Shown piece after piece: positions 4,782 through 15,694 of a stretch of DNA of 42,753 nucleotides; the stretch's first letter is position 1; each line of letters begins with the position of its first letter. Made by a program: the position numbers and the translations under genes. The stretch is from Candidatus Thiosymbion oneisti (lineage in GTDB: Bacteria; Pseudomonadota; Gammaproteobacteria; Chromatiales; Chromatiaceae), in NCBI RefSeq assembly GCF_900092655.1, contig NZ_FLUY01001648.1:1-42753 (forward strand). The letters are read 5' to 3'. The notes under the pieces were generated by a model. It was not told where the DNA came from, did not search any database, and saw nothing but the letters and a program-made list of their open reading frames with translations.

Positions 4782-4847
4782 AAAACTACGAATCACGCGA
4801 ATCCACGCGAAAATTGATTCGCGCTGATTCGCGTGATTCGTAGTTTT
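4782..4847. repeat. Perfect 22-bp-stem hairpin repeat
   Basis: Bases 4782-4803 (AAAACTACGAATCACGCG plus AATC) are the exact inverse complement of 4826-4847. The loop has a further small stem (CGCGAA/TTCGCG). A less perfect relative with the same words is at 35177-35249. It lies in the 79-bp gap between ppiB and lptD. The stem ends in an A-run and a T-run, so it could act as a bidirectional terminator, but its recurrence indicates a dispersed repeat. Confidence 0.85.
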
Positions 4848-4857
4848 AAACGATAGC

Positions 4858-7281
4858 ATGTCTTTTTGTCATCCCAATCCTGCCTGCTGCGTCGGGATCT
4901 TTCTGTTGCTGGCAACCGCTTGTGCCGTTTGTGCCGGCGAGGGTCGGAGCTGCGGTGCGGGAGCGGGTGGTGTTGATCGGCGCTGCGTGGGTCAAGGTCG
5001 AGAAGGGCCTCCCACACTGGCGCAACCCCCGGTCCGCACATCCACTGCAATGCCCCCGGAGGCGGCCACTGGCGTGTCCACTCAGGCGACCGTCGATACC
5101 GATCTCCTCCATGAGGGCCTGGATTGGGAGTATTGCGGTCTCCGCCCGGTCAGGCTTGGGCCGGCAGTGCGCCCGCCGCCACCGACCGCAGAGGACCCCT
5201 TGTCCTTGAGCGCCGATGCCTTCGATTATGATCAGGAGAGTGATCTGCTGTGGCTGAGAGGGGACGTCCGAGGGGTCCAAGGCAACCGATTCGTCGCGGC
5301 GGACGGGGTTGTTTACGACCACAACACCTCGGACCTGGTGGCTAAGGGGAGCATCTTTCTCGCCGACCCAGGGGTCCGGCTCATCGCCGACGGGGCACGG
5401 ATGAACCTGGCATCGGACCAAGGTAGCCTCTCCGATGTCTACTACCGATTCACGGGGAAGCTCAATGCCCGCGGCAACGCCGACCAGGCAGAGCTGGTTG
5501 ACCCGACCCTGACCCGGTATCGAAATATCGTCTATTCCGCCTGCCGACCGGGACAGCGGGCCTGGTCCCTGGATGCCGCCGAATTGGAGCTGAATCAGGC
5601 CAAAGGATGGGGCGTGGCACGCCACGCCACGCTACGGGTACGTGGCCTGCCGGTTTTCTACTCCCCGTATCTATCGTTTCCGATCGATAAGCGGCGCAAG
5701 AGCGGCTTCCTGGTGCCGACGTTCGGTAGCTCGGACCGCAACGGTATCGATGTCACCGTGCCCTACTATTGGAATATCGCCCCCCATATGGACGCAACCT
5801 TCTTTATGCGCCATATGACCAAACGTGGCCCGATGCTCGAGACCGAATTCAGGTACCTGTCGCCCCACCAGAGGGTGCGACTCTCCGGCGAGCTCCTGCC
5901 CCGGGACAACCAGCGCGACAGCCGAGACACGCGCTGGGCGTTACGGATCGAGCAGGCGGGTGCTTTCGGTCCACGCTGGTCGACTGCCCTGGATTACAGA
6001 GCCGTCTCCGACGACCAATATCTCGAGGATTTCAGTGCCCAGCTGGAGCAAACCAGTGCGCGCAACCTCGAGCGCCGGGGCGATTTAAGCTATTCCGGCG
6101 ACGGCTGGTACCTGCTCACCCGGCTGCAAGAATTCCAAACCCTGGATGAAACCCTTGGGCCCGAGTCCAAACCCTATGCACGATTGCCCCAGCTGGTCTT
6201 TGGGATAAATCCGCGCAATCGGGTTGGCCCCGGAATCGAGCTGGGCGTCAGCGGCGAGTACGACTACTTCCATCACGATACGATCATGCATGGGCACCGC
6301 ACCGCCCTCCAGCCCTTCGCCCGTTGGCCACTGCGCAGGCGCTACGGACATCTGATCCCGCAGCTGAATCTCCATCTGGCCGGATACGACCTTAAGGACC
6401 GGCAACCGGACAAGGATGCACGTCCCTCCTATGCGATCCCGAGCTTCAACCTGGATGCGGAGCTGGTGTTCGAGCGTGCGGTAAAGTGGTTTGGTCGGGA
6501 ATCGCTGCAGACGCTCGAGCCCCGGGTCTTTTATCTCCACACTCCCTTCACGGAGCAGGCAGATCTCCCCGTTTTTGACACCGCCGAACAGAGCTTCAGC
6601 TACGACAGTCTGTTCCGACTGAATCGGTTCACGGGATGGGACCGCGTCGGCGATGCGAACCAGGTTACCCTCGGCCTTACATCACGAACCCTCGCCAGGG
6701 ACTCGGGGCAGGAGCTGCTGCGGGCCAGCATCGGCCAAATCCTGTACGCTCGCGACCGGGACGTGCAGGTCTCCGGTCCGCCCGAAGAGGGGGGCAGGTC
6801 CCCGATTGCGGGGCTTCTGAGCGCCCGACTCCTGCAGAACTGGACCGGTCGCGCGAGCTTCGAATATGACTCGGACCAGGAGACCGATCGCTTGCGAAAG
6901 CAGACCCTGGAGCTACGCTACCAGACACCAGACAATCGGCTGCTCAACCTGGCCTATCGGTTTGATCTCGGCACCGGCGAGGAGAAGCTATACGAGAATA
7001 CCGACCTGTCGTTCAGTCTACCGGTCAATCGAGGGTTCCAACTCGTCGGTCGCTGGCACTACTCTTTGCTCGACAGCCAGACGGTGGAGGCCTTCGCCGG
7101 CCTCGAGTACGGTCAGTGCTGCTGGCGGGTACGGCTGCTGGGCCATCATCTGAAGAACGAGCCGGACAGCGCCGGCACCAACAGTGTCATGCTCCAGGTA
7201 GAGCTGGCGGGGCTCGGCTCGATCGGACAACAGGTGGACAAATTCTTCGAGCGCAGTATCTATGGTTATTCCATACACTAA
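4858..7281 (+). CDS. lptD: LPS-assembly protein LptD
   Basis: LptD is the outer-membrane beta-barrel that, with lipoprotein LptE, inserts lipopolysaccharide into the outer leaflet. The 807-residue protein has a hydrophobic signal region (about residues 11-26), a periplasmic OstA/LptA-like beta-jellyroll (about residues 112-235), and a long C-terminal barrel. The four cysteines expected for the disulfides that activate LptD are present: Cys93, Cys229 and the adjacent pair Cys754-Cys755 (EYGQCCW). The spacing of the first two (136) is close to that of E. coli LptD. The segment before Cys93 is longer than usual and rich in Cys and Gly, so a later start is possible, but this one keeps the signal peptide. 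The gene precedes surA, the conserved order; SurA helps fold LptD. Confidence 0.95.
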   Translation: MSFCHPNPACCVGIFLLLATACAVCAGEGRSCGAGAGGVDRRCVGQGREGPPTLAQPPVRTSTAMPPEAATGVSTQATVDTDLLHEGLDWEYCGLRPVRLGPAVRPPPPTAEDPLSLSADAFDYDQESDLLWLRGDVRGVQGNRFVAADGVVYDHNTSDLVAKGSIFLADPGVRLIADGARMNLASDQGSLSDVYYRFTGKLNARGNADQAELVDPTLTRYRNIVYSACRPGQRAWSLDAAELELNQAKGWGVARHATLRVRGLPVFYSPYLSFPIDKRRKSGFLVPTFGSSDRNGIDVTVPYYWNIAPHMDATFFMRHMTKRGPMLETEFRYLSPHQRVRLSGELLPRDNQRDSRDTRWALRIEQAGAFGPRWSTALDYRAVSDDQYLEDFSAQLEQTSARNLERRGDLSYSGDGWYLLTRLQEFQTLDETLGPESKPYARLPQLVFGINPRNRVGPGIELGVSGEYDYFHHDTIMHGHRTALQPFARWPLRRRYGHLIPQLNLHLAGYDLKDRQPDKDARPSYAIPSFNLDAELVFERAVKWFGRESLQTLEPRVFYLHTPFTEQADLPVFDTAEQSFSYDSLFRLNRFTGWDRVGDANQVTLGLTSRTLARDSGQELLRASIGQILYARDRDVQVSGPPEEGGRSPIAGLLSARLLQNWTGRASFEYDSDQETDRLRKQTLELRYQTPDNRLLNLAYRFDLGTGEEKLYENTDLSFSLPVNRGFQLVGRWHYSLLDSQTVEAFAGLEYGQCCWRVRLLGHHLKNEPDSAGTNSVMLQVELAGLGSIGQQVDKFFERSIYGYSIH

Positions 7282-12771: not shown

Positions 12772-12816
12772 CCTGCTCGCTGTGGTCGAGCTTCGATTTC
12801 CCGCGAGAGGGTCTTG

Positions 12817-13869
12817 ATGACGAGTACTGCCGGCGGTGACAACCAGGTTAGCGAGCGCGCCCAGCATTTTCTAAAGGTCCTGATTGAACGCTATATCCGG
12901 GATGGTCAGCCCGTGGGCTCCCGGACCCTGTCGAAGGAAACGGGCCTGGAGCTGAGCCCGGCGACGGTGCGCAATGTGATGGCGGATCTGGAGGAGATGG
13001 GGCTGGTGTCCTCGCCCCATATCTCCTCCGGGCGGGTGCCTACGGACTTGGGTTACCGGCTCTTTATCGATTCCCTGCTTACCGTCAAGCGATTGGCCGA
13101 ACAGGAAGTGGCCGCGATGCGTCGCCAGCTGAACGACCTCGGCGATGCCTCCACGCTGATCGAGCGCGCCTCCCAGCTGCTTTCCGGCGTAACCCGTCTC
13201 GCCGGGGTGGTCATGATGCCGCGCCACGAGCACGGTGCCTTCCGCCAGATCGAGTTTTTGTCCTTGTCCGGGGGTCGGGTGCTGGCGATTCTGGTGACCA
13301 GCGAAGGCGAAGTCCACAACCGGGTTGTCAATACGGATCGCAGCTATTTACCGGCAGAGCTCGAGCAGGCGGCAAACTGTTTGAACGCCATGTTCACCGG
13401 CCAGGATCTGCATGCGGTGCGTAGGCGCCTGGTGGCAGACATGAAGACCACCCGTGAGCATATGGACCGGGTCATGTTGCAGGCGGTAGAGATGGCACAA
13501 GGGGTGGTGGAAGCCGCCGAGGGCACCGACGATTGCTTTATCGCCGGGCAGACCAACCTGATGGAATTCAACGAGCTGGCGAGCGTGGAACGGCTCAAAC
13601 AGCTCTTCGACGCCTTTACGGAGAAGAGTCAGATCCTGCATCTGCTCGATCGCTGCATCGCGGCCGAGGGGGTGCAGATCTTCGTCGGCGAGGAGTCCGG
13701 CTATCAGTTGCTGGACGACTGTAGCCTGGTTACGGCGCCATATGGTAGCGACGATCAGGTGATCGGCGTGCTGGGGGTGATCGGGCCGACGCGAATGAAT
13801 TATCCGCGGGTCATTCCTCTTGTGGACATGACCGCGCGTCTGTTGACGGCGGCCTTGAAACAACAATAG
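12817..13869 (+). CDS. hrcA: Heat-inducible transcription repressor HrcA
   Basis: HrcA represses chaperone operons by binding CIRCE and is released when GroE is occupied by unfolded proteins. The 350-residue protein has the N-terminal winged helix-turn-helix (RYIRDGQPVGSRTLSKE through LSPATVRNVMADLEEMGLV), the HISSGRVPTDLGYRLF loop, and the C-terminal sensor domain ending in GPTRMNYPRVIPLVDMTA. I chose the ATG at 12817, with GAGAGGG at 12805-12811 five bases upstream; an adjacent TTG codon at 12814 is the alternative. A perfect CIRCE and strong promoter lie directly upstream. In most hrcA-grpE-dnaK-dnaJ operons grpE follows closely; here about 1.15 kb of inserted elements intervenes. Confidence 0.97.
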   Translation: MTSTAGGDNQVSERAQHFLKVLIERYIRDGQPVGSRTLSKETGLELSPATVRNVMADLEEMGLVSSPHISSGRVPTDLGYRLFIDSLLTVKRLAEQEVAAMRRQLNDLGDASTLIERASQLLSGVTRLAGVVMMPRHEHGAFRQIEFLSLSGGRVLAILVTSEGEVHNRVVNTDRSYLPAELEQAANCLNAMFTGQDLHAVRRRLVADMKTTREHMDRVMLQAVEMAQGVVEAAEGTDDCFIAGQTNLMEFNELASVERLKQLFDAFTEKSQILHLLDRCIAAEGVQIFVGEESGYQLLDDCSLVTAPYGSDDQVIGVLGVIGPTRMNYPRVIPLVDMTARLLTAALKQQ

Positions 13870-13946
13870 CGTACCCGATTTCTGAGGTGACCGAAAGTCG
13901 CTAGGGTGTGTTGACATTTAACCTAGGGTCTACGCTCAACCAACTG

Positions 13947-14851
13947 TTGGGCGGTCTCTTGACGTAACTCGCGATGGAAAATAAGAGTTCTAAGCCTAAT
14001 AGCTGGTGGACTACGCTTCCAGGCGTGCTTACGGCTGTGGCTGGGCTAGTTACCGCAGTTACCGGTCTTCTAGTCGCAGTCGACAGACTGGTCGAAACAA
14101 AAAGTGATCCGATTGCTGCGCAGAAACCACAGCAGGTTCAGTGGATTCTAGATAATGACGGTCACGGCACAGCTGGAATGTGCTTGGGACAGTGGGTACT
14201 TGATACGCAGCGATTAGCACGAGGTCCTATTTGCAGGTATGACTCGCTTTTCATTCCTTGGCGTGACCTCAGAACCGATTTGGAAAAGAATATCCTCCGA
14301 GAGGTCGGCCGCGTACCAAACGCTGCAAATCTTCGGTTAGCGGCTGGCCCTCAGGGCCAACTCAACTGGATCATGCAAGTCATTGACTCCCATGGAAAGG
14401 AGGTTGCTCACATCTGGATTGGCAGCAATCCGTTAAACCGTTGGGAATTTGACGGGCTAATACGTATTGGAGCTCCTACTGAACCTCCAGACGTCTGGGA
14501 AACATTCCGTCGATTTTCCGACGGAAGTTATAAGCGTTTCTAACTATCTGTAACGTGAATCCGTGAGATAAAATCCGGGATTTCGGTTAACTCTATGATT
14601 TTACTTGGATTTTAAAAGATTGGCTATTTCACCTGCTGGGTGAGTCCAAAAATGAATGAATTTTTCCATTATCCTGTTGTTTTATAAGGGGATTATTCTA
14701 TAAGCGGTTCATTTAGTTCACGGAACCAGGTGTAATATACCAGCCCGAATCGCCCAACAACTGGCTCAGCGCCGACCCAATACCGCGCTCCGAACTTATC
14801 ATTAAAACATAAGTCCGTGCCAGCGCGGTATTGGGCCAGCTAGCCAAAACG
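13947..14851 (+). mobile_element. Solitary integron-type gene cassette
   Basis: The segment has the anatomy of an integrated integron cassette. At its left edge is a core site G|TTGGGC (13946-13952, matching GTTRRRY), 22 bp before the start codon of a single ORF. After the ORF comes an attC-like site starting GCCCAAC (14752-14758, matching RYYYAAC) and ending at the G of GTTGGAA (14851). On excision the circle would join G to TTGGGC, giving a core exactly complementary to GCCCAAC. That match between two ends 900 bp apart is what I would expect of a real cassette. No integrase gene, attI site or second attC is visible, so it would be an insertion at a secondary site inside a MITE-like element. 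Confidence 0.75.
13974..14543 (+). CDS. Cassette-borne membrane-anchored protein of unknown function
   Basis: I do not recognise this 189-residue protein. A single hydrophobic segment near the N-terminus (about residues 12-36, SWWTTLPGVLTAVAGLV onward) predicts one transmembrane helix. It is followed by a soluble domain of about 145 residues with several Trp and two Cys (AGMCLGQW, GPICRYD) and the word QLNWIMQVIDSHGKEVAHIW. The TTLPGVLTAVAG-type anchor is common in small proteins of diverse soluble function. It is the only gene in the cassette-like segment, has no clear Shine-Dalgarno sequence, and has codon use unlike hrcA and grpE. About 208 non-coding bases separate its stop from the attC-like site; I see nothing there. 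Confidence 0.7.
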   Translation: MENKSSKPNSWWTTLPGVLTAVAGLVTAVTGLLVAVDRLVETKSDPIAAQKPQQVQWILDNDGHGTAGMCLGQWVLDTQRLARGPICRYDSLFIPWRDLRTDLEKNILREVGRVPNAANLRLAAGPQGQLNWIMQVIDSHGKEVAHIWIGSNPLNRWEFDGLIRIGAPTEPPDVWETFRRFSDGSYKRF

Positions 14852-14857
14852 TTGGAA
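14752..14857 (+). other. attC-like recombination site
   Basis: R'' is GCCCAAC (14752-14758) and L'' is GGCTCAGC (14763-14770). L' is GCTAGCC, inverse to L'' except for one extra base in L'', the extrahelical-base pattern that sets strand choice in attC sites. R' is GTTGGAA (14851-14857). Between them CCCAATACCGCGCT (14776-14789) is exactly inverted by AGCGCGGTATTGGG (14822-14835), and an inner ACTTAT/ATAAGT stem closes the top. The size (about 106 bp), order and spacing fit the attC class of integron sites. Confidence 0.75.
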
Positions 14858-15022
14858 AGCCAGGTAAGTCGGGATCGCAATCGGAATCCCGATTTCGATT
14901 CTGATCCCGATGTCGGGTATGACGCATTCCAAACTACCTGGCTGATGTGGTTCGCTAAATGTCAACGGCCCCTAGGCGCTGGATCCGGCGCCGGGTCCGG
15001 GAACCAGTGGGGAGATTCACAG

Positions 15023-15694
15023 ATGGTAGCGGAGCGAGAGACAGACAAGCCGGAACAGGAGCCGGAAGGGCAGGACGAATCGGCGCAGGACACGGCAGAG
15101 ACGACAGAGACGACAGAGACGACAGAGGTGACGGAGGGCGTAGTGGCAGCGGAAGCCGAAGAGACAGCGATAGCGGCGGATGACGCCGACCCGGCCGAGG
15201 ATGCTACGCCGGAGCGTCTGACCGCCCTGCTGGAGGACGCACGGGCCAAGGCAGACGAAAATTGGGACCAGTTGTTGCGGGTCCGCGCCGAGATGGAAAA
15301 CCTGAAACGGCGTCAGGCCAACGAGCTGGAGAAGGCGCACAAGTTCGCCCTCGACGGCTTCGTGCGCGAGCTGCTGCAGGTACGCGACAGCTTGGAGCTC
15401 GGCCACACCGCAGCCTTGGACGAGCACGCGGACCTTGCCAAGCTCCGCGAGGGCACGGAGCTGACCCTCAAGCTGCTCGCGGACGTGATGGGCAAATTCG
15501 GCGTCGAGCAGATCGACCCGAAGGACGAGCCCTTCGACCCCGCGTATCACCAGGCCATGACCATACAGCCCACGCAAGATGCGGCCCCTAACACAGTGGT
15601 CACGGTGATCCAGAAAGGCTATCTGCTCAATGGCCGGCTGGTGCGACCGGCCATGGTGATTGTCGCGGCGGCCCCGGCATCGGAACAGGCTTGA
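15023..15694 (+). CDS. grpE: GrpE, nucleotide exchange factor for DnaK
   Basis: GrpE drives ADP release from DnaK in the DnaK-DnaJ-GrpE chaperone cycle. The 223-residue protein has an acidic, low-complexity N-terminus with a run of TET units encoded by tandem 9-bp repeats (about 15100-15130). Next comes the long dimerisation coiled coil (ENWDQLLRVRAEMENLKRR) and the C-terminal beta-wing domain ending GYLLNGRLVRPAMVIVA. I chose the ATG at 15023, with GGGGAG at 15009-15014 eight bases upstream. The frame is open for a further 190 bp, but that part reads through the attC-like site and the MITE end and has no GrpE similarity. dnaK follows after 81 bp. Confidence 0.96.
   Translation: MVAERETDKPEQEPEGQDESAQDTAETTETTETTEVTEGVVAAEAEETAIAADDADPAEDATPERLTALLEDARAKADENWDQLLRVRAEMENLKRRQANELEKAHKFALDGFVRELLQVRDSLELGHTAALDEHADLAKLREGTELTLKLLADVMGKFGVEQIDPKDEPFDPAYHQAMTIQPTQDAAPNTVVTVIQKGYLLNGRLVRPAMVIVAAAPASEQA

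Follow-up and report, generated by a model that had tools for sequence, protein, structure and literature searches.

Bacteria of the genus Candidatus Thiosymbion are Chromatiaceae symbionts of marine worms. In Candidatus Thiosymbion oneisti, the genes hrcA and grpE are separated by an ORF followed by a long hairpin, and the question raised by this locus is how what appears to be a single integron gene cassette came to lie inside a housekeeping operon. We analysed the complete stretch of 42,753 nucleotides that carries it (hereafter, the window), together with the rest of the genome and its relatives.

The cassette between hrcA and grpE

The genes are arranged in the order hrcA, gap, grpE and dnaK, and the gap between hrcA and grpE measures 1.15 kb. 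Direct reading of the sequence places the motif GTTGGGC at 13946-13952, GCCCAAC at 14752-14758 and GTTGGAA at 14851-14857. The unit that these motifs delimit, with 13947 as its first base and 14851 as its last, contains a single attC-oriented ORF between two G|TT cores, and its G+C content is 48% versus 61-65% in the neighbouring genes. The attC displays R''/R' and L''/L' boxes, an extrahelical base and one imperfect stem, and its final six bases are repeat sequence. In the excised circle the R''/R' boxes would pair at 7/7 positions, in agreement with the claim of the earlier note that the core before the ORF restores a complement to GCCCAAC. On this anatomy we classify the unit as an integron gene cassette, for which excision and capture by an integrase are predicted.

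Table 1. Features of the hrcA-grpE region of the window
Feature	Position	Strand	Basis or remark
hrcA, upstream neighbour, intact	12814..13869	+	TIGR00331, 324 bits, above cut-off
MITE-like repeat, ~175 bp, IS5-type inverted ends, split by cassette	13901-14975	+	two flanking halves
Left part of split MITE-like repeat	13901..13946	+	joined with 14852-14975, aligns to C338 and C1432
Left terminal inverted repeat, CTAGGGTGTGTTGACATTTA	13901..13920	+	85% complementary over 20 bp to 14956-14975
Inverted core (L-box-like) GCTCAAC	13934..13940	+	alignment of copies; five bases before GTT core
5' core GTTGGGC; cut G13946|T13947	13946..13952	+	perfect complement of GCCCAAC in excised form
Integron gene cassette, 905 bp	13947..14851	+	bounds set by cores and uninterrupted repeat copies
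Cassette ORF, 189 aa	13974..14543	+	N-terminal hydrophobic helix, then ~140 aa without known relatives
attC, R'' GCCCAAC to R' GTTGGAA	14752..14857	+	R2 62 bits, E 1.7e-15; fold z -5.9
Right part of split MITE-like repeat	14852..14975	+	central hairpin 14869-14910; right terminal inverted repeat 14956-14975
grpE, downstream neighbour, intact	15023..15694	+	NF010748, 196.7 bits, above cut-off

None of the 4,227 Rfam families matched the window at gathering scores, and a covariance model was therefore built here. On other contigs of this genome, BLAST with the hairpin revealed similar sites, several of which were supported as attC-like by a fold-based scan; the closest, on contig C1498, shows 79% identity over 85 bp. 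The model, R2, was made from eight other attC sites of this genome, with the window site excluded. When run on the 42.7-kb window it recovered the attC listed in Table 1, and its only other match was the same palindrome on the opposite strand. The hairpin folds into a single long imperfect stem in which L'' has one additional, unpaired base, and it scores z -5.9 on the bottom strand and -5.1 on the top strand against shuffled sequences. The fold and the held-out model, whose match has an E value of 1.7e-15, bear out the full attC architecture with an extra L'' base described in the earlier note, and the extent given there for the cassette, 13947-14851, agrees with the cores, the attC and the uninterrupted copies of the surrounding repeat.

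The cassette protein had no match in Pfam, PADLOC, PHROGs or PDB and nothing meaningful in NCBIfam, and no relatives of it were found in the 37 related genomes, in collections of genome and viral contigs or in plasmids. Among 369 genomes of the class, matches were confined to the N-terminal anchor, residues 4-39. The N-terminal 35 residues resemble a hydrophobic anchor that precedes several different domains in otherwise different proteins; the genes sharing it have no attC nearby. Single-sequence structure prediction gave a mean pLDDT of 51. The likeliest reading is that of a membrane-anchored accessory protein. The gene is co-directional with the hrcA-grpE-dnaK operon, with which it is presumably transcribed: the promoter scan detected neither a promoter on its strand nor a terminator, and transcription by read-through from hrcA is therefore likely.

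The interrupted repeat and its empty copies

The cassette is flanked left and right by the halves of one repeat, whose inverted ends read CTAGGGTGTGTTGACATTTA and TAAATGTCAACGGCCCCTAG. Once joined, these flanks align to a copy on contig C338 with 81% identity over 144 bp and without a break at the junction, and they match a copy on C1432 from 13937 rightwards, that is, over the core and all the sequence to its right; in the copy on C271 the core and the left end are present. The uninterrupted copies, with the core sequence GCCCAACCAACTGTTGGAAAGCC, read CAACCAACTG|TTGGAAAGCC and represent the empty site, rejoining at G|TT. The C1432 site reads CAACCAACTGTTGGAAAGCC, while C338, C271 and 15 places in the congener G003 (Candidatus Thiosymbion ectosymbiont of Catanema) have identical or near-identical cores, so the clean rejoining at G|TT that the earlier note predicted is demonstrated. 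The inverted core reads GCCCAAC in the sister copies. Beyond the locus itself, the core motif occurs at 3 places in the genome of the window and, with up to one mismatch, at 15 in G003, and none of the copies checked gave an attC match at the core. The repeat is thus no proven hot spot, because only one of the roughly 19 core-bearing copies found is occupied.

The left-end sequence is common to many elements of the genome. We call the repeat MITE-like because other short elements, and the remnant of a DUF4096 (IS4/5-type) transposase on contig C1234, have the same ends. It has the properties of an IS5-type MITE, being short, multicopy, bounded by shared inverted ends and devoid of a transposase, and the transposase that was found is a remnant. 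Another family of elements in the same genome, 131-151 bp long (L086, L088, L090 and L091), has the same TTGACATTTA ends and a different interior.

About 100 bp separate hrcA from grpE in the congeners G003 and G001, and this gap contains neither MITE nor cassette, which indicates that the window gained more than the cassette; no attC was detected in the gap of the congeners. The cassette ORF was absent from 37/37 relatives searched, and neither the ORF nor the hairpin was met with at other boundaries in these relatives or in the congener gaps; other boundaries would have counted against the earlier description. Its view that the cassette entered a heat-shock locus holds as to the position between hrcA and grpE, but the target was the MITE-like repeat and not the original spacer. 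The gap of a further congener, G002 (L037), houses another ORF, encoding a hydrophobic protein of 159 aa with no Pfam family and with no attC; the gap has been invaded more than once.

A second lone unit was found in G003. This 816-bp cassette-like unit (L229; contig C1, ~773-774 kb) combines an attC with a perfect 5' core, and its flanks, once joined, align across the junction to a different interspersed repeat with copies in the genome of the window, G002 and G003, some of which read CCCAACACCGGTGTTGGGC or close to it. It too sits at a GTT that belongs to two cores in inverted orientation. Of four joined-flank tests in G003, L229 was the only one to reveal an empty site. The presumed 5' core of another G003 candidate, L231, is probably wrong, as the sequence flanking L231 upstream is found again near other attC sites. 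In each of the two landing sites demonstrated, an inverted core precedes the GTT by a few bases, and two cases do not make a rule.

Integrase and attC sites in the genus

As the earlier note had stated, there is no integrase, attI or cassette array near the locus: neither intI nor attI was found beside the cassette in the window and its contig, and the locus is accordingly not a chromosomal or mobile integron. It corresponds to a SALIN, with the only attC in 42.7 kb and with intI matches on other contigs. The genome-wide search for intI and arrays, also suggested earlier, succeeded in part. It returned about 54 attC sites on many contigs, CALINs and intI fragments, but no intact intI was found in the assembly of 1,891 contigs; because the assembly is so fragmented, an intact copy may be missing from it. 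Two of the fragments adjoin attC sites, namely the C-terminal half of an intI with the integron-specific insertion (L021; contig C108, 17241-17720) and a broken N-terminal piece (L022; contig C113, 2738-3052). They represent what is left of two integron platforms with the usual divergent arrangement.

The genus-wide counts come from an earlier covariance model, R1, which included the window's own attC site. It gave the 54 matches in the genome of the window, 128 in G003 and 7 in G002, and no attC match in G001, which served as negative control. G003 possesses an intact intI (contig C11, 532233-533174; 459 bits, above the curated cut-off), which adjoins attC sites in the usual integron layout. 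Its genome of 5 Mb has at least 96 attC sites at at least 44 separate places, on contigs C1, C9, C10, C11, C12 and C13, an unusually dispersed set. Lone cassettes account for 22 of 44 places, a figure that is an upper bound because a more sensitive scan found neighbouring attC sites and several 3' flanks resemble the start of further cassettes. At one G003 locus (L240; C9:622000-630000), the attC at 4789-4892 is followed by GTGCGCCGCGCAAAGCGCGGCGCATC...GGTGAAAGTCCCGAC, which resembles the beginning of a group II intron, possibly a member of the attC-targeting class. A literature search found nothing on integrons in Thiosymbion.

Origin of the lone cassette and its significance

We consider it very likely that the locus arose by two successive insertions and that the lone cassette is a SALIN produced by integration of the attC x attG type. 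A non-autonomous repeat of about 175 bp, a MITE with IS5-type inverted ends, would have entered the hrcA-grpE spacer, and the MITE would have preceded the cassette. An integron integrase in trans would then have recombined the folded bottom-strand attC of a free circular cassette with the GTT core inside the repeat, CCAACTG|TTGGAA, leaving a lone cassette. Consistent with an attG-type event, the cassette lies precisely at the G|TT of a site that belongs to neither the attI nor the attC type and whose empty counterpart is demonstrated. IntI would have been the catalyst, and its action in trans is plausible. The circle probably came from the host's own integron pool, since the closest attC, that on C1498, fits an origin among the cassettes of the lineage.

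Other histories have to be weighed against this one. The cassette might have entered the repeat elsewhere, the composite of MITE and cassette having then been moved into the hrcA-grpE gap by an IS5-type transposase. On either side of the cassette the end of the repeat is intact, and the genome retains a remnant of a DUF4096 (IS4/5) transposase that shares these ends, both of which speak for composite transposition; however, the ORF is present once in the genome and the attC has no second copy there, hence no sign of a source or sister of such a composite, and we regard this course as unlikely. Target duplication by another element would fit the five bases, GTTGG, common to both junctions, but neither a transposase nor terminal repeats of such an element were found. 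That the locus is what remains of a larger array, a CALIN whose other cassettes and integrase were lost, is in keeping with the CALINs and intI fragments elsewhere in the genome. It is very improbable all the same: both sides of the cassette run into matching halves of one repeat, there is no second attC or intI remnant at the locus, and the uninterrupted repeat copies largely refute it. The hairpin does follow a stop codon and precede the next gene, as an ordinary terminator might, or an unrelated palindrome with its boxes by chance. We give this reading practically no credence and reject it, given the held-out attC match, the lack of a terminator-like site, boundaries that coincide exactly with the break in the repeat and homologous attC sites throughout the genome.

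The proposed two-step insertion, with the cassette entering a resident MITE, relates to systems already in the literature, where both SALINs and attG sites have been described. SALINs and CALINs are the IntegronFinder terms for lone attC sites without integrase (PMC9024848, PMC12690207). The published definition of a SALIN fits the window locus, with one attC, one ORF and no integrase or attI near; the locus differs in that its empty target has been demonstrated and is an interspersed repeat. Insertion of cassettes into chromosomal sites by attC x attG recombination was reported by Loot et al. (2024, Nat Microbiol 9:228-240, doi 10.1038/s41564-023-01548-y), here taken from the accounts in PMC12901181 and PMC12444791. 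So far as those descriptions go, the locus is alike in that a cassette entered, at a GTT core, a chromosomal site other than attI or attC, and differs in that this site is part of a MITE-like repeat and has a second, inverted core.

The attI sites of integrons have an inverted core a few bases before the GTT. The repeat family is similar, with its GTT core and inverted core upstream (GCCCAAC-5-GTTGGAA), and this double core may be called attI-like by analogy; unlike attI, the repeat has no intI, promoter or array beside it. In the MITE-like integron mobilization units of class 1 integrons, two MITE copies flank the integron. There too integron parts are bounded by MITE ends, whereas in the window the cassette splits one MITE.

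That interspersed repeats carrying attI-like double cores serve as landing sites is a modest novelty. Tentatively, and with more doubt than confidence, we suggest that such repeats (one family with GCCCAAC-CAACT-GTTGGAA, another with GCCCAAC-ACCGGT-GTTGGGC) might be dispersed landing sites that let the integrase spread cassettes chromosome-wide; if true, MITE transposition in this symbiont genus would create new entry points for cassettes.

To our knowledge, off-target insertion of cassettes is known mainly from laboratory work with mobile integrons and from lone attC sites without a known empty target. At this locus the target can be given to the exact base, since uninterrupted copies of the repeat exist in the same genome, and the locus is a natural example of the recently described off-target scattering of cassettes through chromosomes. 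With a known target, a housekeeping operon and attC sites at dozens of places, the genus offers a natural system for the chromosomal sites that an integrase prefers, and one in which to ask whether transposable repeats seed integrase sites.
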